A program made the position numbers and the translations under genes. This document shows, piece after piece, positions 17,067 to 31,556 of a DNA stretch of 64,000 bases (the first letter of the stretch is position 1; every line of letters starts with the position of its first letter). The DNA lies in the NCBI RefSeq assembly GCF_013426975.1, contig NZ_JACCPY010000010.1, forward strand, positions 1 through 64,000, given 5' to 3'. Below the pieces are notes generated by a model. It was not told the origin of the DNA and made no database searches. It saw only the letters and a list, made by a program, of their open reading frames with translations. The DNA is from Sphaerotilus sulfidivorans. Its GTDB lineage: Bacteria; Pseudomonadota; Gammaproteobacteria; Burkholderiales; Burkholderiaceae_C.

Positions 17067-17825
17067 TCAGAGCGTCAGCAGGCGCGAGCGGCGCTGGGTC
17101 TGGTCGATGTAGCGCTGCAGCTCACGCTCGGTCACCAGATCGAGTCCGGCCAGCTCGCAGCCGATGCGCCAGTAGGCGCCGCCGATCGCCTCGACACGCG
17201 ACACATGCGAGATCACCAGGCCGGTGTTGATGCGGGTGCCGGCATCGAGCTCGAGCAGCACGTTGGGCAGGCGCTGCCCGCGCTGGAACAGATCCAGCGG
17301 CTCGGCCAGCATCAGCGCCACGCCGGTGTAGCTCAGGTCGATGATGCGCAGCTCGAGCTGGCGACCGGCCAGCTCCGGATGCGCCATGCAGGCCTGGGCC
17401 CGGCCGCGTCCGATCGGCTGCACCCGGAAACTGCTGCGGCGCTGGAAGCGGAAGACCTCGCGCGGATAGGAGGCATTGAGCACGCTGCCGACGCGGCCGT
17501 TCACCAGCACCAGATCATCGACATCGAACTGGATCTTCACATTGTCCAGATAGGCGGTGGCGGTGAGATCGCCCGCACAGACCAGCCGCTGGACCGCCTC
17601 GGCCTTGGGATCGACGGAGAACACCAGCACCTGGTGCTCGCTGTCCTCGGCCCACAGCGAGGTGGAATAGGTCGGCAGGTCGGCCCCGCCCAGCGACACC
17701 GGAATGTCGTTCTGCACCATCTGCCGCAGCAGCGCACGAATCTCCACCTGCGAGCGCACCCGCAGATCGGCACTGGCCGCCGGCATCGCGCAATCGCGCC
17801 TTCGGATCGAACCGTCTCGTGACAT
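17067..17825 (-). CDS. ycgR: Flagellar brake protein YcgR (PilZ domain, c-di-GMP effector)
   Basis: YcgR slows the motor when bound to cyclic di-GMP. The 252 residues contain an N-terminal YcgR domain (about 20-120) and a PilZ domain. The PilZ domain has the RRSSFR arginine motif (R130, R134) and DLSYTG (D163, S165, G168), the two c-di-GMP contact motifs. Both are intact, so it should bind the nucleotide. It is the third gene of the fliS-fliT-ycgR unit, 15 nt after fliT, placing motor braking under the same sigma-28-like promoter as late flagellar genes. Confidence 0.93.
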   Translation of the reverse strand: MSRDGSIRRRDCAMPAASADLRVRSQVEIRALLRQMVQNDIPVSLGGADLPTYSTSLWAEDSEHQVLVFSVDPKAEAVQRLVCAGDLTATAYLDNVKIQFDVDDLVLVNGRVGSVLNASYPREVFRFQRRSSFRVQPIGRGRAQACMAHPELAGRQLELRIIDLSYTGVALMLAEPLDLFQRGQRLPNVLLELDAGTRINTGLVISHVSRVEAIGGAYWRIGCELAGLDLVTERELQRYIDQTQRRSRLLTL

Positions 17826-17840
17826 CGCGCCTCCCTGCGC

Positions 17841-18191
17841 TCAGTGCAGCACGTTGTGCCCGGGATGAACGAGCATGCTGTCGAGATCCTCCAGCCACGG
17901 CTCGGCCAGGATGCGGATCTCGGCGTCGTTGCGCAGGATGCGCTGCATGATCCGGGACTTGACCTGGACCTCGTCGCAGGCCAGCCGGTTCTGGTGATCG
18001 GCCGCATGCTTGAGCTGGGAGATCAGCACGGCGCAGGCCCCTTCGAGCTTGACGACCCGATCCCAGTTGCCGACGCGGGCCGCCTCCAGCATGTCGGCGC
18101 TGGCCTGCTCGATGGCTTCGTAGTACTGCAGCAGCGGGCTCTTGCGGACCGGATCCGGCATCGGGTGTCGGGCAGTGGCGGCTTTGGACAT
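17841..18191 (-). CDS. fliT: Flagellar export chaperone FliT (FliD chaperone)
   Basis: A 116-residue helical protein of the size and place of FliT, which in enterics escorts the cap protein FliD and restrains FlhDC. Recognisable pieces are LLQYYEAIEQASADMLEAA and DWDRV-like NWDRVVKLEG near residue 42. Family conservation is low, so the assignment leans on position directly after fliS and before ycgR. If it works as in enterics, it would provide feedback onto the FlhDC encoded at 25274-26172. Confidence 0.85.
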   Translation of the reverse strand: MSKAATARHPMPDPVRKSPLLQYYEAIEQASADMLEAARVGNWDRVVKLEGACAVLISQLKHAADHQNRLACDEVQVKSRIMQRILRNDAEIRILAEPWLEDLDSMLVHPGHNVLH

Positions 18192-18240
18192 GGTGGACCT
18201 ATGGGAACACGTGGTGCGGCGGACGCAGCGAGCGTCCGGG

Positions 18241-18693
18241 TCAGGCCCTCGCCCCGCGTGCCACCTGCGGACCGATCTCGACCCAGGCCTCGCGGATCGG
18301 CCGGATCAGCCGGTCCGCTTCCTCGAGGATCGAGACGTCGTTGCGCAGGTTGGCCAGCGTCAGGCGCGAAATCACGTAGCTGTAGAGCGCGTGAAGGTTG
18401 TGGGCCACGTCGCCACCGGCCTCCAGGTCGAGGGCGGCCCGCAGGCCCTCGTCGAGGATGCGCACCGCCCTGCCGATCTGCTGGCATTTCACTTCGATCA
18501 GCTTCGCCTGCATGGCCAGCCGCGCTCGTCCGACGGATTCCAGGAAACCATCGAACAGCATCAGCACAAGCTGATGCGGCGAGGCCGCTTCCACCTCGGT
18601 CTCGAGACCGACCTGGGCGTACATGCGGGCGAACTGCTGCGCGCGACCGAAGGGAGATGACACCATGGCAGGAGAGAATGCGCTGTGATACAT
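18241..18693 (-). CDS. fliS: Flagellin export chaperone FliS
   Basis: FliS binds the C-terminus of flagellin and stops it polymerising in the cytoplasm. The 150-residue product has the FliS landmarks YAQVGLETEVEAASPHQLVLMLFDGF (residues about 25-50) and a four-helix pattern ending in NDVSILEEADRLIRPIREAW. An N-terminal extension of some 20 residues precedes the conserved core. It heads the fliS-fliT-ycgR unit, with a sigma-28-like promoter about 50 nt upstream. Confidence 0.95.
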   Translation of the reverse strand: MYHSAFSPAMVSSPFGRAQQFARMYAQVGLETEVEAASPHQLVLMLFDGFLESVGRARLAMQAKLIEVKCQQIGRAVRILDEGLRAALDLEAGGDVAHNLHALYSYVISRLTLANLRNDVSILEEADRLIRPIREAWVEIGPQVARGARA

Positions 18694-18743
18694 GGCTGGG
18701 TTCTTCTCGGGAACTGGGGCGATGGCGAACAGTTGTCACTGGC

Positions 18744-18771
18744 TTATCGTCGCGCCCGCGCCCCGACTTGA
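18744..18771 (-). promoter_or_regulatory. sigma-28-like promoter for fliS-fliT-ycgR
   Basis: The minus strand has TCAA (18768-18771), 16 nt, then GACGATAA (18744-18751), matching the flagellar sigma-28 -10 GCCGATAA at 7 of 8 positions. It lies about 50 nt upstream of the fliS ATG, in the gap between fliS and the glycosyltransferase gene. Confidence 0.75.
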
Positions 18772-18790
18772 AGCATTGGCAGGGGTGGAT

Positions 18791-20785
18791 TCAGGACAGT
18801 TCTGCGGCCAGCGGGGCCGCAGGCAGGCCGGCGTCCTGGCGCTCGACCATGCGCAGCAGCAGCCGCTCCAGGTCGCGCGCGAAGCGCCGGCCATCGAACA
18901 GAGGGGACGCGGTGCGAGCCTGCTCGAGCCGCAGGCGAAGTGCCGCGCAGGCCCCGGGCTCGGTCGCCAGCCGGATCGCCTCGGCGATGTAGCGGTCGAT
19001 GTCGTCGCAGGCCAGCTCGGACAGGCCCAGCGTGCCCAGCAGGCTGCCAGCGACCCGGGAAGCAAAGCTGCGGCCCGTCAACGCCAGCACCGGCACGCCG
19101 GCCCACAGGGCATCGCTGGCGGTGGTGTGGCCGCCGCAAGGGTAGGTATCCAGGCACAGATCAGCCAGCGGCAGGCGGGCGCGGTGCAGATCGGCACGCA
19201 GGAAGGGCGCGAAGACCAGCCGCGCCGGGTCCAGACCGCGAGCCTGCGCCTCGGCGCGCAGACGCTGACGGGCCGGCTCGTGCTCGACCAGCAGCCACAG
19301 CACCGAGCCCGGCACCGCCTGAAGGATCCGGCACCAGGCCTCGAAGACCTCCGGCACGATCTTGTAGGGCATGTTGAAGCTGGCGAACACGAAGCTCGCC
19401 TCGGCCGGCAGTCCGCACTGCGCGCGGGTCGGCGGCTCGGGCCGGCTTCGCGTGCTGTCGTTGGGCTGGTAGCAGTGCGGCATCTGGGCGATCCGCTCGG
19501 TGAAGTCAGGCTGGGCCTCCAGCGGCGTCACCACCGGATCGCCGATGAAATAGTCGATGAACGGCGCGCCCGTGGTGCCCGGATAGCCCAGCCAGGACAC
19601 CTGCACCGGCGCCGGCCGGTGGGCCATCACGTCCATGCGTGCACCCAGCGTGTAGCCCTTCATCTCGATCAGCACGCCGATGCGGTCGTCGCGGATGCGC
19701 CGCGCCAGATCGCCCGAGGTCAGATCGGCCGTCTCGCACCAGGCGGTCGCGGCGGCACGGATGCGCGCGCGCAAGGCAGAGCCGTCGTCCGGACCGCCCG
19801 AGTACAGCCACAGCTCGAAGCGCTCCCGGTCGATCGCCTCGAGGCATTCGGCGACCAGGATGGCGGTGGCATGGTTGTGGAAATCGCTCGACACCAGGCC
19901 GATGCGCACCCGGCCCTGCGGGCGCGGCACCTTCATTTCCGCCCGACGCGGCACCGCCGCCATGCGGCCGGTCTGCTGGCGGCAGGTCAGGCGCGAGGCC
20001 CAGTGCAGCACCTCGGGGTCGTCGGTAAGCGTGATCAGCGGAAAGCCGTTGACGACCCCCGGCAGGGTCTGGCCCTCGGTGGCCTCGACACGCTGGATGC
20101 ACTGAGCAAGGCGATCGAAGTCCTCGGCCAGACCGGCCCAGTCGCAGGCCCAGGAACTGGCATGGGCCGCTCCCACCGCCGCACCGAGATCCCGCGGCTC
20201 GTCATCGAGCAGCATGCGATGGCACAGCGCCGCCTCGGCATGGCTGCCGTGCTTCATGAAGCCATGCGCCATGCCGAGCAGGGCCTGCCGGCGGATCGAC
20301 CGGTCCGGACCGGCCAGCGCCAGCGCCATCGAGCAGGCCTTGACCGTGCCCTCGAAGTCGAACAGCTTGATGCGGGCCTTGGCCAGCGCCAGATGCCAGC
20401 GGGCATCCCGGGGCGCCGCCGGGTCCAGGGCCTCGAGCACCTGGATCACTTCGGCATGGCGGTGGCGCTCGAGCAGCAGGTCGGCCAGCAGCTGGCAGAC
20501 ACCGGCACTGGCCGGGTCCAGACGGAACGCCCGCTCCAGGTGCCGGATGCTGTCATCGATCTGGCCCAGCGCATGCTGGCACTGGGCCAGGCGCGCCCAG
20601 TGGACGGCCGATTCCGGTGCAAGACGGGTGGCAGCGAGAAACTGGTCGCGCGCCGCCTTGAGCTGACCGCGCGACTGGAGATCCTGCCCGCGGCGGGAAG
20701 CGGCGGCACCCGGATCACGTCGCGCCGCGACGGGTCGCGCCTGCTGCGGTGCGGCCGGGCGCTCCTCGACGGATGGAAGGCTCAT
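18791..20785 (-). CDS. TPR-containing O-GlcNAc-transferase-like glycosyltransferase (SPINDLY/GT41 type)
   Basis: The 664-residue protein joins N-terminal TPR repeats (about residues 30-200, for example ARDQFLAATRLAPESAVHWA) to a GT41-like catalytic half. That half has VRIGLVSSDFHNHATA near 290, FASFNMPYKIVPEVF near 465, VLWLLVEHEP, and the donor-site stretch HTTASDALWAGVPVLAL near 550. Such enzymes add a sugar to Ser or Thr of proteins in the cytoplasm. Its place between fliD and fliS suggests flagellin as the target, which is inference. No clear sigma-28 motif precedes it, so it may be read from fliD. AGGGG lies 8 nt before the ATG. Confidence 0.85.
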   Translation of the reverse strand: MSLPSVEERPAAPQQARPVAARRDPGAAASRRGQDLQSRGQLKAARDQFLAATRLAPESAVHWARLAQCQHALGQIDDSIRHLERAFRLDPASAGVCQLLADLLLERHRHAEVIQVLEALDPAAPRDARWHLALAKARIKLFDFEGTVKACSMALALAGPDRSIRRQALLGMAHGFMKHGSHAEAALCHRMLLDDEPRDLGAAVGAAHASSWACDWAGLAEDFDRLAQCIQRVEATEGQTLPGVVNGFPLITLTDDPEVLHWASRLTCRQQTGRMAAVPRRAEMKVPRPQGRVRIGLVSSDFHNHATAILVAECLEAIDRERFELWLYSGGPDDGSALRARIRAAATAWCETADLTSGDLARRIRDDRIGVLIEMKGYTLGARMDVMAHRPAPVQVSWLGYPGTTGAPFIDYFIGDPVVTPLEAQPDFTERIAQMPHCYQPNDSTRSRPEPPTRAQCGLPAEASFVFASFNMPYKIVPEVFEAWCRILQAVPGSVLWLLVEHEPARQRLRAEAQARGLDPARLVFAPFLRADLHRARLPLADLCLDTYPCGGHTTASDALWAGVPVLALTGRSFASRVAGSLLGTLGLSELACDDIDRYIAEAIRLATEPGACAALRLRLEQARTASPLFDGRRFARDLERLLLRMVERQDAGLPAAPLAAELS

Positions 20786-20903
20786 GACTCAGACCCCTGG
20801 AAGTCGACTGGATCGACCGAGTCTGCATGGCCTTCAGCATGAACATCGCCGGATAAGCCGCCCTGTCGACGCCAGTTCAGTGCGACCCCGGGTCCATCCC
20901 GGG

Positions 20904-22361
20904 TCAGTAGTAGTAAGCGCGGTTCAGCAAGCTCAGGTTCGACACCGCCGAACTCAGCGAGCCGATCTTCGACATCTGGGTGTCGAGCGACTGGTACTGC
21001 TTGTTCAGCCGCGCCTCGATGCCGGTCATGCGCAGTTCCAGCGCCTCCTGCTTGGTCTGGTTGCGCTTGAGTTCGCTGCGCAGGCCGTCGGTGCGCGTCT
21101 GCAAGGCACCGTCGGTACCCAGCACGCTGTCGGCGTACTTGCGGAAGCGCTTCATCACGCCGGTCAGCGCGGTGGTGCTGCTGTCGCCGCCGTTGAGCAG
21201 CTCCTTGACCTGGGTCGGATTTTCCAGCGCAGCATCCAGCTTGGAGGACTTCAGCTCGAGCTTGCCGGAAGCATTGATCGAGACACCGATGTCGGACAGG
21301 CGCTTGAGATCGCCGCTGCCGGAGCCCGAGAAGGCCTCGAACACCATCTGGCGCATCTGGCTCTGGATACCGACGGCGGTGCGGTCCGCCTGCAGCTTGC
21401 CGGCGCTCTTGGTGGCCGCGTCGTACTTGGTCTCGCTCTTGATCGTGTCGGACAGGCTGTTGAAGGCAGAGATGAAGTCATTGAGCTTGGTCTTGAGCTC
21501 GGAATGGTCCGAGGCGACCGTCAGCTCGACCGGCGAGCCGCTGGTCTTGCCGAGCTTGATCGACAGCCCCTCGATCGCATTGTCGATCGTGTTGGAGGCC
21601 GAGCTGATCGACAGGCCGTTGATCAGCACCTGCGCATTGCCGGCCACCTGGTTGCGCGACATCGGCGAGGTCGTGGTGGCATCGTAGGCCAGAGCGGACA
21701 GGCCAGTGGCCGCGTTGCCATCGTCGCTGGTCTCGGTGGCGGTGATGCGGAAGGCGTTTTCCTCGCCCGTCTTGGTCGAGCGCAGCGTCAGCCGCGAGCC
21801 CGAGGAGTCGGTCACGATGCCTGCGGTCACGCCGGCGTTGGCCTTGTTGATCTTGTCGCGGATCGCGCTCAGCGAGGTCTCGCCGTCGGCGATGTCGATG
21901 GTGACCGGCGTGGCGCCGGACTTGGCGCTGAAGCCGGTCGGCGGCGAGCCGCCCGCCCAGCTGCCAAGCTCGATCGTCAGCGAGCCTGCCGACAGCGTGG
22001 CGCTGCTGCTGGCGAACACGGCACTGCTGAGCGTCTGCGTCGTCGCCAGAGCGTTGACCTGCAGCGAATGCGAGCCGGCAGCGCCGTTCTTGCCGCTCAG
22101 CGAGGTCACGGTCGCCACCGAGGCATCGGAGACCGTGGTGCTGGTCTGCCCCCACAGCGAGGTCGAGTTGAAGGCGGCCGCCTTGTCCCGGAGCGACGAC
22201 AGGCCGCTCTGGATCTTGCCGAACGACGAGATCTTCGCGTTGATCGAGGTCTCGGCGCTCTGCATGGTCTTGAGCGGCTGACGCTCGATCGCCATCAGCT
22301 GACTGATGATGGAGGACACATCGAGACCACTGCCCAGACCGGACGCTGTGAGAGAAGCCAT
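20904..22361 (-). CDS. fliD: Flagellar filament cap protein FliD
   Basis: FliD caps the growing filament and folds flagellin into place. The 485 residues start MASLTASGLGSGLDVSSIISQLMAIERQPL, the conserved N-terminal D0 region. They end in coiled-coil D0 sequence (LNKQYQSLDTQMSKIGSLSSA...). The preferred ATG follows AGGAG at a suitable gap; an ATG three codons earlier is possible. The central domains are rich in Ser, Thr and Lys. Downstream, 118 nt separate it from the glycosyltransferase. Confidence 0.96.
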   Translation of the reverse strand: MASLTASGLGSGLDVSSIISQLMAIERQPLKTMQSAETSINAKISSFGKIQSGLSSLRDKAAAFNSTSLWGQTSTTVSDASVATVTSLSGKNGAAGSHSLQVNALATTQTLSSAVFASSSATLSAGSLTIELGSWAGGSPPTGFSAKSGATPVTIDIADGETSLSAIRDKINKANAGVTAGIVTDSSGSRLTLRSTKTGEENAFRITATETSDDGNAATGLSALAYDATTTSPMSRNQVAGNAQVLINGLSISSASNTIDNAIEGLSIKLGKTSGSPVELTVASDHSELKTKLNDFISAFNSLSDTIKSETKYDAATKSAGKLQADRTAVGIQSQMRQMVFEAFSGSGSGDLKRLSDIGVSINASGKLELKSSKLDAALENPTQVKELLNGGDSSTTALTGVMKRFRKYADSVLGTDGALQTRTDGLRSELKRNQTKQEALELRMTGIEARLNKQYQSLDTQMSKIGSLSSAVSNLSLLNRAYYY

Positions 22362-22455
22362 GAAAACCACTCCTGGAAGCTCGCGCGGAGCTCAAGCACG
22401 AACGCGCAGAACGGCCAGGCCGGTCTGCGCGCGAGAAGGAATCGACAGGAGCAGC

Positions 22456-22472
22456 CCGGGCTTTCAGCCCGG
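22456..22472 (-). terminator. Possible terminator hairpin after fliC
   Basis: A perfect 7-bp stem (CCGGGCT with AGCCCGG, 3-nt loop) starts 28 nt past the fliC stop. On the minus strand it has no T-run, so it may only stabilise the fliC mRNA 3' end or terminate weakly. Confidence 0.4.
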
Positions 22473-22500
22473 ACCGCCTGCGGATCCGGAGCCGACCGGA

Positions 22501-23340
22501 TCAGCGCAGCAGCGACAGGACCTGCTGCGGCTGCTGGTTGGCCTGGGCCAGCATCGTGTTGCCCGCCTGCGAGAGCACCTGGGCCCGCGACAGGTTCGCC
22601 GACTCGACCGCGAAGTCCGCATCCGTGATGCGACCCCGTGCGGCGGTGATGTTCTCCTGGCTGGTCGCCAGGTTGGCCACCACGCTCTCGAAGCGGTTCT
22701 GCACCGAGCCCAGGTTCGAACGGGCCGAAGTCACCTCGTCGATCGCGGCATCCAGGTTCGAGATGGTCGCCAGGGAGGCATCGACGGTGGAGATCGAGGC
22801 GGCCGCGCCGGTGATGGCTGCCGACATGCCCGTGCCCGCCGTCATGTCACGCAGCGCGACGGTGATGCGGTCGGTGGAATCGGTGTCGGCACCGATCTGG
22901 AAGGCCATGTCGGTGGCCGCCGAGTTCAGCAGGCTCTTGCCGTTGAACTTGGTGCCTTCGAGCACGCGGCTGACTTCGGTGGCCAGCGCGGTGTATTCCT
23001 CGTTCAGGTTGGCACGGTCGCTGGTGTCGTTGGTCGAGTTGGCCGACTGGACAGCCAGTTCACGCATGCGCTGCAGGGACTCGCCGACCTTGCCCAGGGA
23101 ACCTTCAGCCGTCTGGGCCAGGGAAATCGCATCGTTGGCGTTGCGCGAGGCGACGGTCATGCCGCGAACCTGCGAGGTCATGCGCTCAGCAATCGCCAGA
23201 CCGGCCGAATCGTCCTTGGCCGAGTTGATCCGCAGGCCGGTCGACAGACGCTTCATCGAGGTCGAGAGCGAACCGTCGGTCGATTGCAGAGCGCGCTGGG
23301 CGCCCAGCGAGGCCATGTTGGTGTTGATGGTGGTAGGCAT
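22501..23340 (-). CDS. fliC: Flagellin
   Basis: The filament subunit. Only 279 residues, among the shorter flagellins. The N-terminal D0/D1 (MPTTINTNMASLGAQRALQ through RMRELAVQSANSTN) and C-terminal D1/D0 (GSVQNRFESVVANL through TMLAQANQQPQQVLSLLR) are nearly back to back. The outer D2/D3 domains are missing. The central part is rich in Ser, Thr and Ala (AAITGAAASISTVDASLATISN), giving plausible O-glycosylation sites. The ATG follows GGAG. A sigma-28-like promoter and a leader of about 190 nt precede it. Confidence 0.97.
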   Translation of the reverse strand: MPTTINTNMASLGAQRALQSTDGSLSTSMKRLSTGLRINSAKDDSAGLAIAERMTSQVRGMTVASRNANDAISLAQTAEGSLGKVGESLQRMRELAVQSANSTNDTSDRANLNEEYTALATEVSRVLEGTKFNGKSLLNSAATDMAFQIGADTDSTDRITVALRDMTAGTGMSAAITGAAASISTVDASLATISNLDAAIDEVTSARSNLGSVQNRFESVVANLATSQENITAARGRITDADFAVESANLSRAQVLSQAGNTMLAQANQQPQQVLSLLR

Positions 23341-23374
23341 AGCTACTCCAGTGATGTCTGATGCTGATGAGCTT

Positions 23375-23392
23375 GGTGCCGCTCCCGGCACC
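23375..23392 (-). promoter_or_regulatory. fliC leader stem-loop with GGA in the loop (candidate CsrA site)
   Basis: On the minus strand a perfect 7-bp stem GGTGCCG/CGGCACC encloses the tetraloop GGAG, about 35 nt upstream of the fliC ATG. A second GGAG forms the Shine-Dalgarno at 23346-23349. GGA in a hairpin loop plus GGA at the ribosome site is the classic layout for CsrA/RsmA binding. In Bacillus the flagellin gene hag has two leader sites of this kind. That CsrA binds here is inference. Confidence 0.5.
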
Positions 23393-23537
23393 TGATCGAT
23401 CCGAGCTGCATGGTCGTCTGGATCGTGCCCTTGTTTTCGTCGCTGCCCGACGGGACTTGAGGATGAACTGAACGATTTTTTCGAACCAGTTCGTCTTTTG
23501 CGGATCCCGCCAGCACCGATCGGCACAAGGCAGACGG

Positions 23538-23565
23538 TTGTCGGCACGTTGCCTGGCCTTCTTGA
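23538..23565 (-). promoter_or_regulatory. sigma-28-like promoter for fliC
   Basis: The minus strand shows TCAAGAAG (23558-23565), 12 further nt, then GCCGACAA (23538-23545), so 16 nt separate TCAA from the -10. It matches GCCGATAA at 7 of 8. Transcription would start near 23531, giving a leader of about 190 nt. A perfect 10-bp palindrome ACCAATTGGT lies just upstream (23578-23587). Confidence 0.8.
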
Positions 23566-23730
23566 GCGAACAAGGACACCAATTGGTACCGTTTTGAGCC
23601 CGCAAAAGTGAAATCCTTGGTGTTAGAAATGAAGAAAACACCCAGGTCCTCGCCGACCTCGACCTGAATCGACATCGACTCACTTGACGCCGCTGCCGGC
23701 GACAAGCGCTCACGCTCCGGAGACTTCCTC

Positions 23731-24972
23731 ATGATCAACCTCGTCGTCGCCTGCCTGGGGCAGGACATCCGCTGGATCGACGAGCTGCCCGCCTCCTGCG
23801 GGATCAGGCTTCACGCGCCACTGCATGCCGATGCCACCGCCGGCCTGCACCGGCCGGTCCAGCGCGTGTCGGCCGAAGCTGACACCAGCGCGGCGGAGAT
23901 GCATCTGCGCCACCTGCTGACCCTGCCGGGCGGCGCACCACGCGATCTGACCGTGTTCTGCGACGGCCAGCCCTTCGACGCGGCACCGGCCCTGCTTGAT
24001 CTGATCGACAGCGAGGACGCATGGAGCGACGTTCAGCCCCTGGGCGCGCCCCTGGCGCTGCGCGATCTGCCGGAAGCCGAACTGGCGCAGCATCCCGGCC
24101 AGCGCGACTGGATGGGCGGACTGCCGGTGGAGCCGCAGCATTTCTGCCCCCGCAGCCTGTCGACGCTGGGCGGGCGCGACGCGGAAGCACAGTGGCTCGC
24201 CCGCCAGTACCGTCGCCTTCATGGGCTGGACCGGGGCACGCATCTGCTGGGCCATTTTCTCGACCTCTGCGGCCTGGGCGAGCTGGCGAGGGCCGCTCGC
24301 CGCAGCGATCTGGGTCGCCGGGCCCCGGGCGGCATTCTCGCGGTGCGGCAGACGGTGCTGGAGGCCACGGTGCGGCAGCACCGCCAGGCGCTGGACCATG
24401 TGCTCGAGCGGGTGCTGCCCGGGCAGCCCGTCCATGCGCGCCTGTGGGAACACGTCTGGCTGCATCTGTTCGGTCTGCCCTTCGTCACGCTGGAGGCCTT
24501 GCCGCGCCCGCCGGCCCCACCCGCCCCGGCCCGACTCGATGCCGCGATGGCTCGCGCGATGGCCTCGATCGACGCCACGCTGGCGCGCGCCACTGGCGGC
24601 AGGCCCAGCACCGCCACGCCGGCATCCTTTCACCTGCCCGCCCGGGCGATCGCAGCCCGTGCGCCAGCGGCACCGATGGACGAGGCCATGCGGGCTTTCG
24701 GTCGAGGCGATTTCGAACAGGCCGCCCGTCAGGCGCGCCAGGAGCTGATGCGGGCGCCAGACCAGGAGCACAGCCGTTTCATGCTGGCCATGTCGCTGGC
24801 TGCCCAGGGACGCAGCGACGAGGCCCTGGACCAGTTCGAGCGTCTGCTGGGCCGGAGCGAGCAGGACATGCTGTCCTCGCGACCCGCGCCGCAGGCCACG
24901 CCCGCACCCTCCGCACAGAGCAACGCCGGATCGCCCGCGGAAGACCGGCATTCCTCACGCTTTTCCGGCTGA
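23731..24972 (+). CDS. Uncharacterised protein with C-terminal TPR-like repeats, divergent from fliC
   Basis: I do not recognise this 413-residue protein with certainty. It starts MINLVVACLGQDIRWIDELP, a pattern loosely like DUF3431 glycan-related proteins, whose members begin with a similar VVAR-NED-WL strand. The C-terminal part, MDEAMRAFGRGDFEQAARQA and EHSRFMLAMSLAAQGRSDEAL (about 318-370), looks like two TPR repeats. A Pro/Ala/Ser-rich tail follows. There is no signal peptide or membrane helix, so it is likely cytoplasmic. GGAG lies 8 nt before the ATG. Position between fliC and flhDC suggests a role in flagellin handling or modification, which is inference. Confidence 0.6.
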   Translation: MINLVVACLGQDIRWIDELPASCGIRLHAPLHADATAGLHRPVQRVSAEADTSAAEMHLRHLLTLPGGAPRDLTVFCDGQPFDAAPALLDLIDSEDAWSDVQPLGAPLALRDLPEAELAQHPGQRDWMGGLPVEPQHFCPRSLSTLGGRDAEAQWLARQYRRLHGLDRGTHLLGHFLDLCGLGELARAARRSDLGRRAPGGILAVRQTVLEATVRQHRQALDHVLERVLPGQPVHARLWEHVWLHLFGLPFVTLEALPRPPAPPAPARLDAAMARAMASIDATLARATGGRPSTATPASFHLPARAIAARAPAAPMDEAMRAFGRGDFEQAARQARQELMRAPDQEHSRFMLAMSLAAQGRSDEALDQFERLLGRSEQDMLSSRPAPQATPAPSAQSNAGSPAEDRHSSRFSG

Positions 24973-25273
24973 CATGCGCAAATCGCGGATCGGGAGAGAA
25001 GCAGTTTCCAGGCTTCGCCGATGGCAATGAAAATCCACGAAATTTCACACTCGGAGCCATTTCGGGATATGCCGGCGCCCGAAATGTCCGACGCAGGATG
25101 ACAGCCTGTAAGAAGTTGCCTGACACGCTAACGGAATCAGGGTGACGCGAGGCACGGAAGAGGGATGATGTTCCCGCCCAGTTCGGCTCTTCAGAATCCG
25201 CTCCATCGACACACCGCCCCGCAGCACAGCAGCCGCCGGGCAACCCCGACAGACACACCGCCAGGAGCAAGCC
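24973..25273. other. flhDC upstream region, no gene seen
   Basis: A 301-nt gap before flhD, noticeably richer in A/T at its left end. It should hold the flhDC promoter and its regulatory sites. I see no convincing -10/-35 pair (TTGCCTGACACGCTAACG near 25116 is weak), no terminator for the upstream gene and no small ORF with a ribosome site. The right end has AGGAG before the flhD ATG. Confidence 0.5.
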
Positions 25274-25597
25274 ATGAATTCCGACCAGATCCTCGCCGAG
25301 ATCCGCGAAGCCAACCTGTCGTACCTGATGCTGGCCCAGAGCCTGATCCGCGCCGACCGCGAGCAGGCCCTGTTCCGCCTGGGCGTCTCCGAGGAGACCG
25401 CCGCGCTGCTGGAGGCCCTGTCGCCGGCCCAGATGCTGAAGATCGCCGCCTGCAACACGCTGCTGTGCCGCATGCGTGCCGACGACGATCTGGTCTGGGG
25501 CCTGCTGACCAACCACGGCAAGAGCGCCGCCAACGAGGGCGTGTCGCGCCTGCACGCCAGCATCCTGATGGCCGGCCGCCACCGCGAAGCCGCCTGA
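25274..25597 (+). CDS. flhD: Flagellar master regulator subunit FlhD
   Basis: FlhD with FlhC forms the activator of class II flagellar operons. The 107-residue helical product shows the family core EIREANLSYLMLAQSLIRAD and LSPAQMLKIAACNTLLCRMR. Length is normal. AGGAG lies 8 nt upstream of the ATG. It is followed by flhC 38 nt later, a two-gene operon ended by a strong terminator at 26236. Confidence 0.95.
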   Translation: MNSDQILAEIREANLSYLMLAQSLIRADREQALFRLGVSEETAALLEALSPAQMLKIAACNTLLCRMRADDDLVWGLLTNHGKSAANEGVSRLHASILMAGRHREAA

Positions 25598-25635
25598 TTC
25601 CGGATCCGGACCCGCGACGCGAGGGGAACACGACC

Positions 25636-26172
25636 ATGAAGACCAAGAGCATCCTCACCGAAGCCCGCCAGATCGAGCGCGCCGTCACGCTGATCAAGCT
25701 CGGCGCCCGCCTGCAGGTGCTCGAGTCGGAGACCGATCTGTCGTACGAGCGGCTGCTGCGCCTGTACAAGGAAGTCGCCGGCAAGTCGCCGAGCAAGGGC
25801 CAGCTGCCCTTCTCGACCGACTGGTTCATGACCTGGCAGCCCAACATCCACGCGTCGCTGTTCCTGAACACCCACGAATACCTGAACAAGGTGGCCGAGC
25901 TCGAGGAGATCGACACGGTCATCAAGGCCTACCAGCTCTATCTCGAGCAGACGCAGGCGCAGAACCTCGAACCGCTGCTGTCGATCACCCGGGCCTGGCG
26001 GCTGGTGAAGTTCGTCGACAACGGCATGCTGACGATGACGAAGTGCTCCAAGTGCGCGGGCAGCTTCGTCACCCATCCGCACGAGATCGCCAAGCACTTC
26101 GTCTGCGGCCTGTGCAACCCGCCGGCACGCGCCGGCAAGGGCAAGGCCAGCGGATCGCTGCAGCTGCACTGA
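25636..26172 (+). CDS. flhC: Flagellar master regulator subunit FlhC
   Basis: FlhC supplies most of the DNA contacts of the FlhD4C2 activator. The 178 residues contain the zinc-binding cysteines C137, C140, C157 and C160 (TKCSKC and CGLC), all intact. The N-terminal RQIERAVTLIKLGARLQVLESET is the familiar FlhC start. GAGGGG sits upstream of the ATG. FlhDC presence points to the enteric/beta-type hierarchy instead of a sigma-54/FleQ one, and no fleQ-like gene is seen here. Confidence 0.96.
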   Translation: MKTKSILTEARQIERAVTLIKLGARLQVLESETDLSYERLLRLYKEVAGKSPSKGQLPFSTDWFMTWQPNIHASLFLNTHEYLNKVAELEEIDTVIKAYQLYLEQTQAQNLEPLLSITRAWRLVKFVDNGMLTMTKCSKCAGSFVTHPHEIAKHFVCGLCNPPARAGKGKASGSLQLH

Positions 26173-26235
26173 TCGATCCGCCCCACTGATCCCTGATTCT
26201 TGTCTCCTCCCTTGCACCTCGAGCGGTGCAGTTCG

Positions 26236-26262
26236 GGGCCCGGTCATGCCGGGCCCTTTTTT
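26236..26262 (+). terminator. Intrinsic terminator after flhDC
   Basis: An 8-bp stem (GGGCCCGG at 26236-26243 with CCGGGCCC at 26249-26256), loop TCATG, then six T. It closes the flhDC operon 64 nt after the flhC stop and separates it from the next gene. Confidence 0.93.
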
Positions 26263-26309
26263 CTTGTCTTCCGGCTCGCCCCCGAAATGAACAGAAGCGC
26301 AGAAAAAGC

Positions 26310-26336
26310 TCAGGTCATGGCCGGATGAGCCGACAG
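26310..26336 (+). promoter_or_regulatory. sigma-28-like promoter for the glycosyltransferase-methyltransferase gene
   Basis: TCAG (26310-26313), 15 nt, then GCCGACAG (26329-26336), matching GCCGATAA at 6 of 8. It lies between the flhDC terminator and the ATG at 26401. The predicted leader has a 7-bp hairpin (GGCGTCC/GGACGCC, 26364-26381) just before the ribosome site GGAG. Confidence 0.6.
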
Positions 26337-26400
26337 GCGCGCGTGATCCACTCGTTGCGTTGAGGCGTCCCGGCGGACGCCATCCGAGCGGAGTGAGAAC

Positions 26401-27855
26401 ATGACGGCCACCATCTACATCTCGGGGCGGAACTGCGCCCGCTACGTGACGCGCAGCCTGCTGAGCCTGACGCGCCAGACCTGGCAGGACTTCCATGTGG
26501 TGTTCGTCGACGACGCCTCGACGGACGACACGGCCGCACAGGCCCGCGAGGTGCTGTCCCGCCATTTCGCCGGCCGCCATCGGCTGGTGGTCAACCCAGC
26601 GCCACAGGGCAAGGCCGCCAACGCCTTCGAGCTGCTCGGCCGCGACGGCAGCGAATTCACCGCGATCCTGGACGCCGACGACGAGCTGATCCACGAAGGC
26701 GCGCTGGCCCAGATGGCCGACGCCTATGCCCGTGGCTACGACATCGTCTGGACGCAGTATGTGACCGACGACGGTCGCCGCGGCGGCAACGGGCCGCTCG
26801 ATCCGACCCGGGCACCGCGCGGCCAGCGCTGGCTGACCAGCCATTTCTTCAGCTTCCGCACCGAGCTGTTCGCGCAGGTCCCCGCCGCGCTGCTGCAGGA
26901 CGACGAGGGCCGCTGGCTGCAGTGCGCCTGCGACTTCGCGATCGCCTTCCCGCTGCTCGACCAGACCCGCCGCTACCTGCATCTGCCGATCGAGGCCTAC
27001 CGCTACACCGCCAGCAATCCGCAGTCGCACCACAACCAGGCCGGACCGTCGCAGGCATTGAGCTCGCCGGCCCAGCAGGCCAGCGCGAAGCTGGTGCTGT
27101 CGCGGCCGGCCCTGCCCTGCACCCGGCCGCTGGAGACGCATCCGGACAGCCTGATCCAGCTGACGCAGCGGCTGCAGGCCGCGCAGACTGCTCGCGCCGA
27201 GCAGATCGCCCGCAGCACCGAGCAGCGCCTGGCGCGGATGCCGTTCCGGACCCTGGCACTGCAGCGGCTGGTCCAGCAGGAAAAGGTGCCTGCGGCCTGG
27301 CTTGGAGATGCGGGCGGCTGGGCGCTCGATGCGGAGTTCCTCTCGCACATGATCGATGTGCTCGATCGCCATCCGCAGCCCCGGGTGCTCGAGTTCGGCT
27401 CCGGCCGCGGCTCGAAGATCCTGGCCACGCTGATCGCCAGCCGAGGCGGCAGCCTGCACTCGATCGAGCACGATGCGGTCTGGGCCGAGCGCACCGGCCA
27501 GGACTTCGAGCGCCACGGCCTGGCGGCGCACGCCCGGGTGCTGCACTGCCCGCTGATCGAGGTGAGCTTCTTCGAGCAGCCCGGCCGCTTCTACGACCTG
27601 TCGGGCCTGGACCCTGAACTGCGCTTCGACGTGGTGATCATCGACGGCCCGCCAGCCCAGACCTGCAAGCTCGCGCGCCTGCCCAGCCTGGCGGCGATCG
27701 CGCCCCAGCTCGCGCCGACCGGCTTCCATATCCTGCTCGACGACTACGAGCGGCCGGAGGAGCAGCAGATCGTCGAGATCTGGAAGAAGATCGTGCCCGA
27801 CCTGCACTACGAGCGCCTCGACTTCGACAAGTCGGTCTGCCAGATCACCTCCTGA
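26401..27855 (+). CDS. Fusion of GT2 glycosyltransferase and SAM-dependent methyltransferase
   Basis: The 484-residue protein has two parts. Residues 1-205 are a GT-A family 2 glycosyltransferase with VDDAS (36-40) and the metal-binding DADD (91-94). Residues 310-484 are a class I methyltransferase with EFGSGRGSK (331-339), an acidic SIEHD (354-358) and VVIIDGPP. A helical Gln/Arg/Ala linker joins them. No membrane segment is seen, so it is cytoplasmic. It probably adds and methylates a sugar. The sigma-28-like promoter and neighbouring flagellar genes suggest a flagellin glycan, which is inference. It lies downstream of the flhDC terminator, so it has its own transcript. Confidence 0.8.
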   Translation: MTATIYISGRNCARYVTRSLLSLTRQTWQDFHVVFVDDASTDDTAAQAREVLSRHFAGRHRLVVNPAPQGKAANAFELLGRDGSEFTAILDADDELIHEGALAQMADAYARGYDIVWTQYVTDDGRRGGNGPLDPTRAPRGQRWLTSHFFSFRTELFAQVPAALLQDDEGRWLQCACDFAIAFPLLDQTRRYLHLPIEAYRYTASNPQSHHNQAGPSQALSSPAQQASAKLVLSRPALPCTRPLETHPDSLIQLTQRLQAAQTARAEQIARSTEQRLARMPFRTLALQRLVQQEKVPAAWLGDAGGWALDAEFLSHMIDVLDRHPQPRVLEFGSGRGSKILATLIASRGGSLHSIEHDAVWAERTGQDFERHGLAAHARVLHCPLIEVSFFEQPGRFYDLSGLDPELRFDVVIIDGPPAQTCKLARLPSLAAIAPQLAPTGFHILLDDYERPEEQQIVEIWKKIVPDLHYERLDFDKSVCQITS

Positions 27856-27944
27856 CCCTCCAGAGCCGGGAGTCCGCCGAGGCGAACAGGCTGCGCCCGG
27901 ACGTGAACAAGCTCGCAATCGTGGGCAGACTTTTTCCGGTTCCC

Positions 27945-27971
27945 TCAAGTCGAGAAGGCCGGGACCGAAAC
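27945..27971 (+). promoter_or_regulatory. sigma-28-like promoter in an intergenic stretch
   Basis: TCAA (27945-27948), 15 nt, then ACCGAAAC (27964-27971). The architecture equals the motA promoter (TCAA, 15 nt, ACCGATAT). The -10 matches GCCGATAA at 5 of 8. It would start transcription near 27978, inside a gap with no protein gene before 28240. Confidence 0.55.
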
Positions 27972-27977
27972 AGCTTG

Positions 27978-28094
27978 CAGCGGTACGGTCGTGAGCGAGC
28001 TCCGGACCGCTTCTCCCTGTGATCGTTTGCCAGTCTCCCTCGGTGTCAGAACACCGTTTGCACGGACCCGAGCCTCGCGCCCGGGTCCGTTTTT
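27978..28094 (+). ncRNA. Candidate flagellar small RNA
   Basis: A stretch of about 117 nt begins just after a sigma-28-like promoter and ends in a strong intrinsic terminator. It can fold into three hairpins. The first is GCGGT/ACCGC (27980-28010), with CGGTC/GACCG as an alternative inside it. The second is CGGTGT-CAGA-ACACCG (28041-28056). The third is the terminator stem. No ORF in it has a ribosome site. It may instead be the leader of the next gene with an attenuator, or the terminator may simply end the upstream gene. Confidence 0.45.
28062..28094 (+). terminator. Intrinsic terminator
   Basis: A 9-bp stem (ACGGACCCG at 28062-28070 with CGGGTCCGT at 28082-28090) and an 11-nt loop, followed by TTTT and TCTT. 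It lies 207 nt after the upstream gene's stop and 145 nt before the next ATG. Confidence 0.88.
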
Positions 28095-28239
28095 CTTGGG
28101 TCGCCAGATCGGCATGGGCGAAAAAACCGCCGGATAGATCAGCCTCCATCGCGGAGCGGACAGACGACCCCCCCCCTAGTCTCCAAGGCTGCCGAGGATG
28201 GCGTCCGCCTCGTTCCCGGCCCGCCCGGAGTGCCTGACC

Positions 28240-29067
28240 ATGTCCGCCCTGCCCGACCTGTCCCGCCGCCAGAAACGCCGACTCGCCCGCCATCCGGAGC
28301 GCCACGGCCGCGCCCCTGAAGCTCGATCATCTGCGCGCCCCCGCCGCACCCTGCCCTGGCCCCTGCCCGCCCTGCTGGCCTGGGCGCTGGCCTGGAGCCT
28401 GTGGATCACCGCAACGTCGAACGGCCTGCCGGCGGCGGCCGGCTTCGTGCTGGCCACGCTGTCGGCCGGGCTGTTCGCGATCGGCGCGCGCACCCGGTGG
28501 CGGCTGCTGATGACGCTGGGCGGCTTCCCGCTGTCGCTGGCACTGTCCGGGCTGGCCCAGGGCGTGGCCGCCGCCCTGTGGCTGCTGCCGCTGGCGCTGC
28601 TGGCTGCGGCCTACCCGCTGCGCGCCTGGCGCGATGCACCGCTCTTTCCGACCGAAGCCAATGCGCTCGAAGGGCTGGAGACGCTGGTGCCGCTGCCCCC
28701 GATGGCGCGAGTGCTCGATGCCGGCTGCGGCCTGGGCCACGGCCTGCAGGCGCTGCAGAAGGTCTGGCCGGATGCCCGGATGGAAGGCATCGAATGGAGC
28801 TGGCCGATCCGGCTCGCCGCTGGCCTGCGCTGCCCGTGGGCCCGCATCCGCCAGGGCGACATGTGGGCCACCTCCTGGGCCGAGCATGATCTGGTCTACC
28901 TTTTCCAGCGCCCCGAGAGCATGAATCGCGCCGCCGAGAAGGCGCTGGCCGAGATGCGCCCGGGCAGCTGGCTGGTCAGCCTGGAGTTCGACGTGCCGGG
29001 CATGCGCCCGCACGCGCGCCTGCAGAACGAGGGCCACCGGCCGGTCTGGATCTACGCGATCCGCTGA
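28240..29067 (+). CDS. Membrane-anchored SAM-dependent methyltransferase
   Basis: The 275-residue protein begins with a basic stretch (RRQKRRLARHPERHGR), then three or so hydrophobic segments between residues 41 and 126. A class I methyltransferase domain follows with VLDAGCGLGHGLQ (158-170) and PGSWLVSLEFDVPG near the end. The C-terminal domain is shorter than a full methyltransferase. The start was chosen for GGAG upstream; an ATG 42 nt earlier (28198) is possible. It is 48 nt before the next gene, probably one operon. The substrate is unknown, and the company it keeps suggests a sugar or lipid-linked glycan. Confidence 0.7.
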   Translation: MSALPDLSRRQKRRLARHPERHGRAPEARSSARPRRTLPWPLPALLAWALAWSLWITATSNGLPAAAGFVLATLSAGLFAIGARTRWRLLMTLGGFPLSLALSGLAQGVAAALWLLPLALLAAAYPLRAWRDAPLFPTEANALEGLETLVPLPPMARVLDAGCGLGHGLQALQKVWPDARMEGIEWSWPIRLAAGLRCPWARIRQGDMWATSWAEHDLVYLFQRPESMNRAAEKALAEMRPGSWLVSLEFDVPGMRPHARLQNEGHRPVWIYAIR

Positions 29068-29115
29068 CCGGCCCACCCGATCGCTTCAAACCGCACGATC
29101 CCGGATTCATCCCGC

Positions 29116-30513
29116 ATGTCGATGCTCCTGACCGACGACACTCCGGTGCGCTCGCCCCGCCCCCCGATCGAGATGAGGTGGACCGATCCGGCCGACCGCC
29201 TGCGCCGACCGGCCGATGGCCGCTGGCTCGCGGTGCTGCCACCGGCTCGGCAGGTGCTGGCGGTCGGCGAGGAAGCCGCGCTGCTGGCCCCGTGGCATCG
29301 GCAGCAGCATGCCCAGGCCCGCTGGCAGGCCATGCCGCTGCCGGTGGGCGGCGAGGCGCTCGCACCGGCCCTGCCACCGGCCGGATCGATCGACCTGCTG
29401 CTGCTGTCGCCGGGCTTCTTCGCGTTGACCGATGCCGACCGCTGGCTGGCGCGACTGGGCGAGTGCTGCGCACCCGGCGCCCGACTGAGCCTGGCGCTGG
29501 ACAACGGCTGCACGCTCGAGCGCATGGCGCGGCTGCTGGAAGCCGGGACGGCCGCCGCCGGCGATCCTCAGCATGATCCGGCACGCGCCCATGCGCCGGC
29601 CACCGTCTACAAGCTGCTGCTCGATGCCGGCTGGCTGCCGCATCTGGCCGCGCACGAGCCGGTCGAGACCGCCGATCCGGCCTTCGCGCAGGGCGTGCGC
29701 CAGCTCGCCAGCCTGCTCGGCCTGGGCGAGGGCTGCGTCGACGAGGTGCACCGGATGCGCCGGCTGCATGTGCTGGCCCGCCGCGACGATGACGGCCGGG
29801 CGGCCGCAGCGCTGCCGCCACGCACGAGCGCGCCCTTCGCCGTCGTCGTGCCCACCACCGACGAGGCACAGCTGCGCGCCAACGTGCTGGCCTCGCCAGG
29901 ACTGCGCGAGGTCAACGCCCGCATCGCGGTGTGCCGCGGCGCCGCCAGCCCCGGCGACGCGATCGTGCAGGCCGAGGCGGTCTGCGAGGCCGAGTGGCTG
30001 CTGCTGTGCCACCAGGACGTCTATTTCCCGCCCGGTTTCGGCCAGCGGCTTGCGGCCGAACTCGAGGCCATTCCCGCGCACGAGCGGCCGCGTACGCTGC
30101 TGGGCTTCATCGGCGTCGGCGTCGATGCGCAGGGGCAGCGGCTGATGCGCGCCGGCCAGGTCATCGACCGGCTGATCCACATGGACCATCCCGGCTCGGG
30201 CGTGGCGCTGTCCTTCGACGAGGTCGCCATCGTCGTCTCGCGCGGCTCGATCCACCGCATCGCGCCGGAAATGGGCTGGCATCTGTGGGCCACCGACCTG
30301 TGCCTGACGGCGATCTCGCAGCACCGGGTCATGCCGCGGCTGCTGTCGCTGCCGCTGTTCCACAACTCGCGCACCGGCTGGGGCCTGCCCGAGGCCTTCG
30401 TCGATTCGGCCGAGCGGCTGATCGCCCGCCATCCGGCCTTCGCGCCGATCCACACGCTGTGCGCGACGCTGACGCCGGAGTTCGTCGCGAGCCGGCGGGC
30501 AGTGCACCGCTGA
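29116..30513 (+). CDS. Two-domain protein: degenerate methyltransferase-like plus StrF-type glycosyltransferase
   Basis: The 465 residues split in two. Residues 35-230 resemble a methyltransferase fold (strands VLAVGEEAAL and SIDLLLLSPGFFAL, then PGARLSLALDN) but lack the glycine-rich SAM loop, so this half is probably inactive. Residues 240-465 carry WLLLCHQDVYFPPGF (HQD at 299-301) and the LLGFIGVGVDAQG stretch typical of the Glyco_tranf_2_5 (StrF-like) domain. No signal or membrane segment. The start lacks a clear ribosome site, which fits coupling to the upstream gene. It is the last gene before the motA promoter. Role in flagellin glycan assembly is inferred from place. Confidence 0.7.
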   Translation: MSMLLTDDTPVRSPRPPIEMRWTDPADRLRRPADGRWLAVLPPARQVLAVGEEAALLAPWHRQQHAQARWQAMPLPVGGEALAPALPPAGSIDLLLLSPGFFALTDADRWLARLGECCAPGARLSLALDNGCTLERMARLLEAGTAAAGDPQHDPARAHAPATVYKLLLDAGWLPHLAAHEPVETADPAFAQGVRQLASLLGLGEGCVDEVHRMRRLHVLARRDDDGRAAAALPPRTSAPFAVVVPTTDEAQLRANVLASPGLREVNARIAVCRGAASPGDAIVQAEAVCEAEWLLLCHQDVYFPPGFGQRLAAELEAIPAHERPRTLLGFIGVGVDAQGQRLMRAGQVIDRLIHMDHPGSGVALSFDEVAIVVSRGSIHRIAPEMGWHLWATDLCLTAISQHRVMPRLLSLPLFHNSRTGWGLPEAFVDSAERLIARHPAFAPIHTLCATLTPEFVASRRAVHR

Positions 30514-30552
30514 TGGACCGCGCGAGCCGCGCTTTTGCCGATCTTGCCTGGC

Positions 30553-30579
30553 TCAAGTGACCCGAATCCGCACCGATAT
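30553..30579 (+). promoter_or_regulatory. sigma-28-like promoter for motA-motB-cheY-cheZ
   Basis: TCAA (30553-30556), 15 nt, then ACCGATAT (30572-30579), matching GCCGATAA at 6 of 8, about 80 nt upstream of the motA ATG. motAB under sigma-28 agrees with established flagellar class III control. Confidence 0.8.
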
Positions 30580-30659
30580 GCAAATCATGCCTGCGATCCG
30601 CGCAACGCCCGAGGCGTGCTGCGCCGGAACGCTGAGCCTCCACTGAGGAGTCAGGATCC

Positions 30660-31517
30660 ATGTTCGTCATCGTCGGGTGGCTCGTCGCCATCGGTTGCAT
30701 CTTCGGCGTGTACATCGTGCACGGCGGCAACATCCAGGTCATCCTGAAGGCCCTGCCCTTCGAGATGATCACCATCTTCGGCGGCGCGCTGGGCGCCTTC
30801 GTCGCGAACAACCAGCCCAAGGTGCTCAAGGCCACCGGCAAGGGCCTGGGCGCCTGCTTCAAGCCCTCCAAGCACTCCAAGGCCCGCGCGATGGAGCTGC
30901 TGGCCATGCTCTTCGAGATCCTGCAGAAGACCCGCAAGGAAGGCCTGATGTCGATCGAGAAGGACATCGAGGATCCGCACAGCTCGGCGCTGTTCCAGAA
31001 GTTCCCGGTGGTGGGCAACGACCACCATGTGACCGAGTTCGTCTGCGACTACCTGCGCATGATGGTCTCGGGCAACCTCAATGCCCACGAGATCGAGTCG
31101 CTGATGGACACCGAGCTGGAGACCCATCACCACGAGGCCCACGCGGCCGCAGCCGCCATCGCCCGACTGGCCGGCGCCCTGCCCGCCTTCGGCATCGTCG
31201 CGGCGGTGCTGGGCGTGGTCAACACCATGGGCTCGGTCGGCCAGCCGCCGGCGGTGCTGGGCGGCATGATCGGCTCGGCGCTGGTGGGCACCTTCCTGGG
31301 CATTCTGCTGGCCTACGGCTTCGCCGAGCCGCTGGCCGGCCTGCTCGAGCAGAAGATCGACGAGGACGGCAAGGAGCTGCAGACCATCAAGACGGTGCTG
31401 CTGGCCTCGATGCAGGGCTATGCGCCGCAGATCGCCATCGAGTTCGGCCGCAAGGTGCTGTACTCGACCGAGCGCCCGACCTTCACCGAGCTCGAGCAGC
31501 ACGTGAAGAAGAAGTGA
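30660..31517 (+). CDS. motA: Flagellar stator protein MotA
   Basis: MotA and MotB form the proton-driven stator. The 285 residues have four membrane helices (two near the N-terminus, two around 165-230). The cytoplasmic loop carries the charged residues that touch FliG, in the EILQKTRKEGLMSIEKDIEDP stretch. The conserved prolines are in ALPAFGIVAAVLGVVNTMG. GAGGAG lies upstream of the ATG. motB follows after 39 nt. Confidence 0.97.
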   Translation: MFVIVGWLVAIGCIFGVYIVHGGNIQVILKALPFEMITIFGGALGAFVANNQPKVLKATGKGLGACFKPSKHSKARAMELLAMLFEILQKTRKEGLMSIEKDIEDPHSSALFQKFPVVGNDHHVTEFVCDYLRMMVSGNLNAHEIESLMDTELETHHHEAHAAAAAIARLAGALPAFGIVAAVLGVVNTMGSVGQPPAVLGGMIGSALVGTFLGILLAYGFAEPLAGLLEQKIDEDGKELQTIKTVLLASMQGYAPQIAIEFGRKVLYSTERPTFTELEQHVKKK

Positions 31518-31556
31518 CGCGGGAAGCGATCGCGAGCATGAGCACGGGAGCACGCC

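Follow-up and report, generated by a model that had tools for sequence, protein, structure and literature searches.

Five genes outside the core flagellar set lie among fliD, fliC, flhD, flhC and motA of Sphaerotilus sulfidivorans (Burkholderiales, Burkholderiaceae_C), at positions 18791 to 30513 of a 64,000-nucleotide stretch of its genome (assembly GCF_013426975.1, contig NZ_JACCPY010000010.1, positions 1 to 64,000; hereafter, the window). They encode a GT41 (O-GlcNAc-transferase-like) glycosyltransferase, a 413-amino-acid (aa) protein with tetratricopeptide repeats (TPRs), a GT2 glycosyltransferase fused to a class I methyltransferase-like domain (hereafter, the GT2 fusion), a membrane-anchored methyltransferase, and a 465-aa protein with a methyltransferase-like and a glycosyltransferase half. 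An earlier, sequence-only reading took all five to build one methylated O-glycan on flagellin. Comparison with related genomes leads us to favor, with some reservation, a different view, namely that two things are stacked here: an exchangeable flagellin-modification cassette and a separate, motility-linked membrane methyltransferase. Flagellin glycosylation is retained as the likely business of the GT41 enzyme, the GT2 fusion and the 465-aa protein. A single five-gene pathway was rejected because the five genes differ in distribution, the membrane methyltransferase being linked to motA or motB across the order and the TPR protein occurring independently of GT41.

From left to right, the reverse strand carries fliS, GT41, fliD and fliC, and the forward strand then carries the TPR protein, flhD, flhC, the GT2 fusion, the membrane methyltransferase, the 465-aa protein, motA, motB, cheY and cheZ, where the labels fliS, motB, cheY and cheZ come from position and reading rather than from a family search. 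All five interleaved genes were confirmed, and a Pfam scan upheld their initial domain assignments (GT41, TPRs, GT2 and class I methyltransferase). That none of the five is needed for flagella, as was also stated, is doubtful for the membrane methyltransferase, given its motility linkage throughout the order.

Distribution of the membrane methyltransferase

The membrane methyltransferase gene (28198-29067, forward strand) follows motility genes across the Burkholderiales. With a profile built from 24 members, we found it in 88 of 150 genomes of the window's family, comprising 86 of the 108 with motA and 2 of the 42 without; 86 genomes carry both genes, and in 26 of the 39 compared they lie within 3 kb of each other. 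In raw per-genome tallies across the order it is present in 166 of 300 sampled genomes: 154 of 191 with motA (E-value 1e-75 or better) versus 12 of 109 without. Among the matches listed, with the window excluded, it lies at most 2.5 kb from motA in 88 of 114 genomes, in 24 families. Such a motA-linked gene with a lysine-methyltransferase fold (see below) would imply an unrecognized modification in the flagellar machine.

Named loci, which serve as examples rather than counts and some of which lack a gene call, show three kinds of site: between flhC and motA, at the end of a cluster that runs from flhA to fliA, and behind parA and parB. The FlhA, FliA and ParB matches at these loci pass curated cut-offs, and the ParA match falls under its own. 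We also read 20 neighborhoods, picked mainly among strong matches and long contigs. Fourteen are flagellar, ten of these with the order motA, motB, membrane methyltransferase, and six are not (G373, G470, G327, G445, G512 and G155); a crude motif scan of the 20 found no AtpA, AtpD or AtpE motifs. In many genomes nothing but the membrane methyltransferase lies between flhC and motA; in others glycosyltransferases share that gap. The copy in one congener, G004, shares 66% identity and lies upstream of motA. A plasmid search with a distant homologue, made for a named annotation, gave no match, and no description of a motAB-linked methyltransferase was found in the open-access literature, subscription journals being mostly outside that search.

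Fold and likely chemistry of the membrane methyltransferase

The encoded 289-aa protein has a hydrophobic N-terminal part followed by a class I methyltransferase domain. An AlphaFold2 model from 49 sequences has a predicted local distance difference test score (pLDDT) of 86, mostly above 90 in the catalytic domain, with four helices at the N terminus, within the hydrophobic part; hydropathy alone marks two. The best PDB profile matches are to the Sulfolobus protein-lysine methyltransferase aKMT (5fa8, 7.2e-11; 5jwj, 3.2e-10), with the next match at 7.5e-7, and aKMT is again the first match (8.2e-8) when a motB-linked homologue of another family is the sole query. By fold (VIA-align Z), the closest structures are 5bxy (20.0) and the aKMT crystal structures (19.8 and 19.4), followed by a group at 15.9. 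The 5bxy entry is a Salinibacter protein whose title may not reflect its function.

A review groups the human FAM173 enzymes with the archaeal lysine methyltransferases (KMTs) and reports trimethylation of Lys-43 in the ATP synthase c-subunit by FAM173B (PMC10238732). Closeness to aKMT together with this precedent makes a lysine of a membrane protein the most likely target, and we suggest that this lysine most likely belongs to a membrane-proximal component of the flagellar machine; both the lysine activity and the flagellar substrate are proposals, drawn from the linkage, co-occurrence and fold class that we observed. More narrowly, and only tentatively, it may be a motor-protein lysine methyltransferase, acting on MotA, MotB or another inner-membrane flagellar part as a bacterial counterpart of FAM173B. 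If so, an enzyme conserved across much of the order would tune the proton-driven motor by methylation.

The alternative that survives best, although we consider it unlikely, is that the enzyme acts on a lipid, a quinone or RNA and that its motility linkage is operon history only. Copies linked to parB in Acidovorax, Rhodoferax and others would fit such a role, as would the annotation of 5bxy as an RNA methyltransferase and weak matches to generic small-molecule methyltransferases; yet aKMT is the best match with a tested function, and co-occurrence with motA together with three different flagellar-cluster placements is hard to put down to chance.

We find it improbable that the enzyme is instead the glycan methylase of a single five-gene pathway making one methylated O-glycan on flagellin. 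All five genes do lie within 12 kb among flagellar genes and three of them are glycosyltransferases or fusions, but the membrane methyltransferase so often stands alone between flhC and motA, is motA-linked in so many families among the matches listed, and has a domain closest to a protein-lysine methyltransferase, while the TPR protein is independent of GT41. Methylation of flagellin lysines, a role like that of FliB reached by different chemistry, seems to us no less doubtful: flagellar linkage and a domain like those of protein KMTs would suit it, but the central region of the window's FliC is free of lysine (five lie elsewhere in the protein), the enzyme coexists with FliB in congeners G002, G007 and G011, and its recurrent neighbors are motA and motB.

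A probable exchangeable cassette

The evidence for exchange comes first from G010, the closest relative of the window genome, whose FlhC and MotA proteins are 100% identical to the window's. Nucleotide identity is 95.9% at window positions 16001-18802, ending inside the 3' end of the GT41 gene, and no alignment covers 18803-23044, which holds GT41, fliD and most of fliC. Identity is 90.4% at 23045-23397, nothing aligns at 23398-23884, and 92.5% identity at 23885-26172 is followed by a second unaligned segment at 26173-28015, which holds the GT2 fusion, and by 94.5% identity at 28016-33497. The left edge of this exchanged segment is the flhC stop codon (26172). The GT41 gene is absent from the continuous fliS-fliD stretch of G010, and elsewhere that genome has only GT41 genes of 40-47% identity; its fliD (78% aa identity) and fliC (69%) are different alleles from the window's. 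In its sequenced parts, the slot of the GT2 fusion holds an acetyltransferase-like sequence and a glycosyltransferase (GT)/methyltransferase fusion of a family seen in other congeners. Fragments that resemble insertion sequences, by our reading of translations, lie at the two contig ends in this slot (L017:1-333 and L018:9576-9911).

G001, conversely, shares with the window a FliC that is 96% identical and a GT2 fusion that is 99% identical, and it keeps GT41; its TPR protein is just 44% identical. Across the window genome, G001 and G010, then, GT41, the GT2-fusion slot and the flagellin allele vary together, and the TPR protein does not vary with them. Such sister species, with different filament alleles and different modification cassettes, offer a ready comparison of what flagellin glycosylation does.

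The same gaps were compared in 11 genomes of the genus besides the window's, with genes called by a codon-usage caller that recovered those of the window. Between flhC and motA, the window and G001 have the GT2 fusion, the membrane methyltransferase and the 465-aa protein. G005 (L010:2097-12162) and G008 (L009) have a nine- or ten-gene sugar set upstream of the membrane methyltransferase. It includes GmhA- and HddA-like genes and, in G005, an HddC-like gene; a kinase, an isomerase and (G005) a nucleotidyltransferase match GDP-heptose pathway models with scores under the curated cut-offs. The set also has an E1-type dehydrogenase gene, an aminotransferase, a B12-radical S-adenosylmethionine (SAM) protein and a GT/methyltransferase fusion. 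G004 has a TylF-type methyltransferase and a GT/methyltransferase fusion, and five genomes have a protein of about 400 aa, with an HD domain in the one tested. Two such proteins encoded between flhC and the membrane methyltransferase (L013:10991-12253 and L021:6894-8105) were searched against Pfam, where one matches HD_5 and the other nothing at E 0.001; the protein is possibly a degenerate HD protein of the cyclic di-GMP type.

Between fliC and flhD lies the TPR protein in the 10 congeners in which that protein was seen, alone or with extra cargo, namely GT41 with a GT/methyltransferase fusion (G009 and G012) or FliB (G002, G007 and G011). The FliB proteins score 178, 204 and 197 bits against a curated model cut-off of 85, and with the G007 protein as query the window genome has no FliB match at E 1e-10. 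An orthologue of GT41 at more than 50% identity occurs in 8 of the 13 genomes of the genus and FliB in 3, never together, and all 13 carry additional, more distant GT41 genes. Flagellins also differ: all eight from congeners with GT41 lack a central lysine, and six of seven from congeners without GT41 have at least one (Fisher p 0.0014; flagellin calls of at least 250 aa, which excludes the partial call of G012, and G003, for which fliC was not fetched). This pattern in related genomes is suggestive only, and together with the mutual exclusion of GT41 and FliB it hints at competing modification strategies outside the enterobacteria.

Domains of the cassette proteins

The GT41 protein (18791-20785, reverse strand) matches Pfam Glyco_transf_41 at 1.2e-92 (311.4 bits against a curated cut-off of 25), and its N-terminal repeats match TPR_19, TPR_1 and TPR_15, all above cut-off. 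Its top PDB match is human OGT (3e-97), and XcOGT follows at 5e-85. In the part of the alignment that we saw, an FN..YK motif aligns to human OGT and GHTT stands at 552-555 of the query; these may correspond to the catalytic and UDP-binding residues of OGT. The GT2 fusion (26401-27855, forward strand) matches Glycos_transf_2 at 7e-18 (65 bits).

For the 465-aa protein (29116-30513, forward strand), the window copy has no Pfam match of its own, PF13712 included. Among 11 members of its alignment, seven have a methyltransferase domain and three match Glyco_tranf_2_5 (PF13712), at best at 4e-4; the motifs HQDVYF and GWHLW are invariant. We describe it as a degenerate methyltransferase-like half joined to a probable glycosyltransferase half of PF13712 (StrF-like) type. 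At the SAM-binding motif the window copy reads AVGEEA where five relatives read ELGCANG, and near relatives are degenerate too. Because of this degeneration, the methyltransferase half of the window protein is probably inactive. With that half degenerate and the membrane methyltransferase set apart, any methylation of the glycan would rest on the GT2 fusion only.

Many relatives outside the genus lie near flagellar genes. In 299 genomes of the family there are, beyond the window, 12 relatives of the 465-aa protein covering at least 350 residues. Nine have fliC or flhDC in the same fetched 7-20 kb, two of them counted by a flagellin-like gene at just 35-39% identity, and eight of the 12 have a GT41-family gene there; in G130, G219 and G101, genes for GT41, a GT/methyltransferase fusion and the 465-aa protein follow one another in that order and point away from fliC. 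Three genomes encode relatives fused to an extra C-terminal domain, which we read as GT4-like (L156:2064-4652, L157:8056-10713 and L160:13715-16234). The single full-length relative of the GT2 fusion that these 299 genomes hold outside the genus, in G081, shares 40-43% identity and lies about 4.4 kb from a GT41 gene, on the same stretch as fliC.

The sequence-only reading had asked whether such genes travel with a lipopolysaccharide or capsule locus. Nine of the 12 relatives of the 465-aa protein are near flagellar genes and 3 have none in the stretch read. The flagellin reading stands because these relatives are mostly near fliC or flhDC, and because GT41 and the GT2 slot differ with the fliC/fliD allele. 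We find it improbable that the three cassette enzymes act instead on lipopolysaccharide, capsule or sheath: some relatives have aminotransferases and other genes not labeled as flagellar beside them, and there are the three relatives just mentioned, but against these stand the other nine, the coincidence in G010 of a missing GT41 and a different GT2 slot with changed fliC and fliD, and the fact that GT41 enzymes act on proteins.

Flagellin and the TPR protein

The proposed substrate, FliC (22501-23340, reverse strand, start at 23340; Flagellin_N/C), was described as short with a Ser/Thr-rich middle. At 279 aa it is short; enrichment in Ser and Thr was not borne out, since these make up 25% of its central 59 residues, and among 35 other short flagellins the median is 24% (range 18-33%). 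Those 59 residues contain no lysine, and five lysines lie elsewhere in the protein. Two further Flagellin_N proteins are encoded in the window genome (C55:35386-35784 and C57:66689-67060), possibly FlgL and a second flagellin.

The gene for the 413-aa TPR protein (23731-24972, forward strand) is divergent from fliC and encodes an N-terminal domain followed by C-terminal TPRs. In Pfam at E 0.1 the window copy has TPR matches only, and no clear Pfam family was found for the N-terminus among 11 members. It occurs alike in congeners with and without GT41, and its profile also matches a TPR protein of about 165 aa at the same site in other genera. A predicted structure from a two-sequence alignment (pLDDT 42) was not used.

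Weighing the two-part view

In the model that we propose, the TPR-bearing GT41 enzyme would place the first sugar on Ser or Thr of FliC while this is still in the cytoplasm, ahead of export. The GT2 fusion and the 465-aa protein, with its PF13712-type half, would extend or decorate that sugar, perhaps with one methyl group contributed by the GT2 fusion. In congeners other sets occupy the same gaps: an acetyltransferase or a TylF-type methyltransferase beside a GT/methyltransferase fusion, a pathway for heptose-type sugars, or FliB. The domains, the linkage to fliC and the covariation with the fliC/fliD allele were observed; the substrate, the sugar and the order of steps are our proposals.

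A number of observations pull the other way. On the side of the membrane methyltransferase, 37 of the 191 genomes with motA across the order lack it, and it lies away from motA in 26 of 114 genomes among the matches listed. Some of the order-wide matches, at E 1e-8 to 1e-12, are weak and could represent different methyltransferases, and the order-wide counts ignore kinship among genomes. The parB-linked copy lies away from flagellar genes in relatives of Rhodoferax, Aquabacterium and Acidovorax (L101, L073 and L090) and in others. By fold, the best match (5bxy) bears the title of an RNA methyltransferase, and the aKMT nuclear magnetic resonance model (5jwj) reaches a Z of just 14.6. A strict lysine signature was sought in MotA and MotB, and none parts carriers of the membrane methyltransferase (43 MotA, 22 MotB) from non-carriers (15 and 11); there are tendencies, at MotA K284 (60% of carriers versus 8% of non-carriers) and MotB K57 (77% versus 9%). 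On the side of the cassette, its genes in the window include none for sugar-nucleotide or sugar biosynthesis, the GT2 fusion is rare (a single full-length relative beyond the genus), and the 465-aa relatives of G186, G129 (a 7-kb contig) and G256 have no flagellar gene in the stretch read. The lysine and FliB patterns in the genus come from few, related genomes. The G010 comparison is of one sister pair, in which the middle of the GT2-fusion slot falls between two contigs and the GT2-fusion comparison covers that slot rather than the whole genome.

Promoters and other flagellar genes

The GT2 fusion had also been credited with its own sigma-28-like promoter. In a scan with our own weighting of a sigma-28 consensus, its best site scores 15.7, a score reached by 17 of 198 control upstream regions, and we do not regard the promoter as established. 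The scan does separate motA: 43 motA upstream regions have a median score of 18.0, with best sites of the form TCAAG-N14-GCCGATAA, and 207 controls have a median of 13.3; a score of at least 17 is reached by 28 of the 43 versus 14 of the 207. For the membrane methyltransferase, 30 upstream regions were scanned and all score below 17.

The window's motA (30660-31517, forward strand; MotA_N) has a sigma-28-like site in front that scores 17.2. The remaining flagellar genes interleaved with the five are fliD, for the filament cap (20904-22370, reverse strand; FliD_N/FliD_C), flhD (25274-25597, forward strand; PF05247, 1.3e-39) and flhC (25636-26172, forward strand; PF05280, 1.6e-85). Several genera carry tandem copies of flhDC, often separated by a gene of about 340-350 codons (L024, L026, L030, L031, L034, L075, L113 and L124). 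In G009 another flhDC copy stands well apart from the flagellar locus (L016:7722-8708), followed by what reads as a ketopantoate reductase-like gene.

Comparison with known systems

The sequence-only reading did not recognize this gene set. Its kind is, however, already on record, and we regard it as a variant of the flagellin glycosylation islands (FGIs) of Enterobacteriaceae. According to the study that describes these and the FliB methylation islands (FMIs) of the same family (PMC4875605), the flagellin locus carries variable glycosyltransferase cargo including GT41, along with methyltransferase domains, acetyltransferases and aminotransferases. As in the Sphaerotilus locus, glycosyltransferase cargo there varies between close relatives, and FliB and glycosylation sets are mostly mutually exclusive. 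The sites differ, since the enterobacterial inserts that were screened lie between fliC and fliA, whereas here the gaps are fliD/fliS, fliC/flhD and flhC/motA. The cassette would work like an FGI, yet it is not classed as one because its insertion site differs. It also departs from FGIs in having no sugar-biosynthesis genes in the window, heptose-pathway-like genes being found in congeners G005 and G008.

The cassette would also resemble flagellin-dedicated O-glycosyltransferases of the cytoplasm such as Caulobacter FlmG, which has an N-terminal flagellin-binding domain and uses pseudaminic acid (PMC7591256). FliB, found at the fliC-flhD gap of three congeners and without a match in the window genome, resembles the membrane methyltransferase in linking methylation to the flagellum and differs by its use of a [4Fe-4S] cluster (PMC8598068). 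The catalytic domain of the membrane methyltransferase matches aKMT (PDB 5fa8, 5fad and 5jwj) by profile and by fold, although aKMT, at 161 residues in 5fa8, leaves no room for a hydrophobic N-terminal part. A possible parallel for the whole protein is human FAM173A/B; FAM173B is described as having a putative transmembrane domain and as acting within the membrane, where it methylates a c-subunit lysine of ATP synthase (PMC10238732, PMC5828452).

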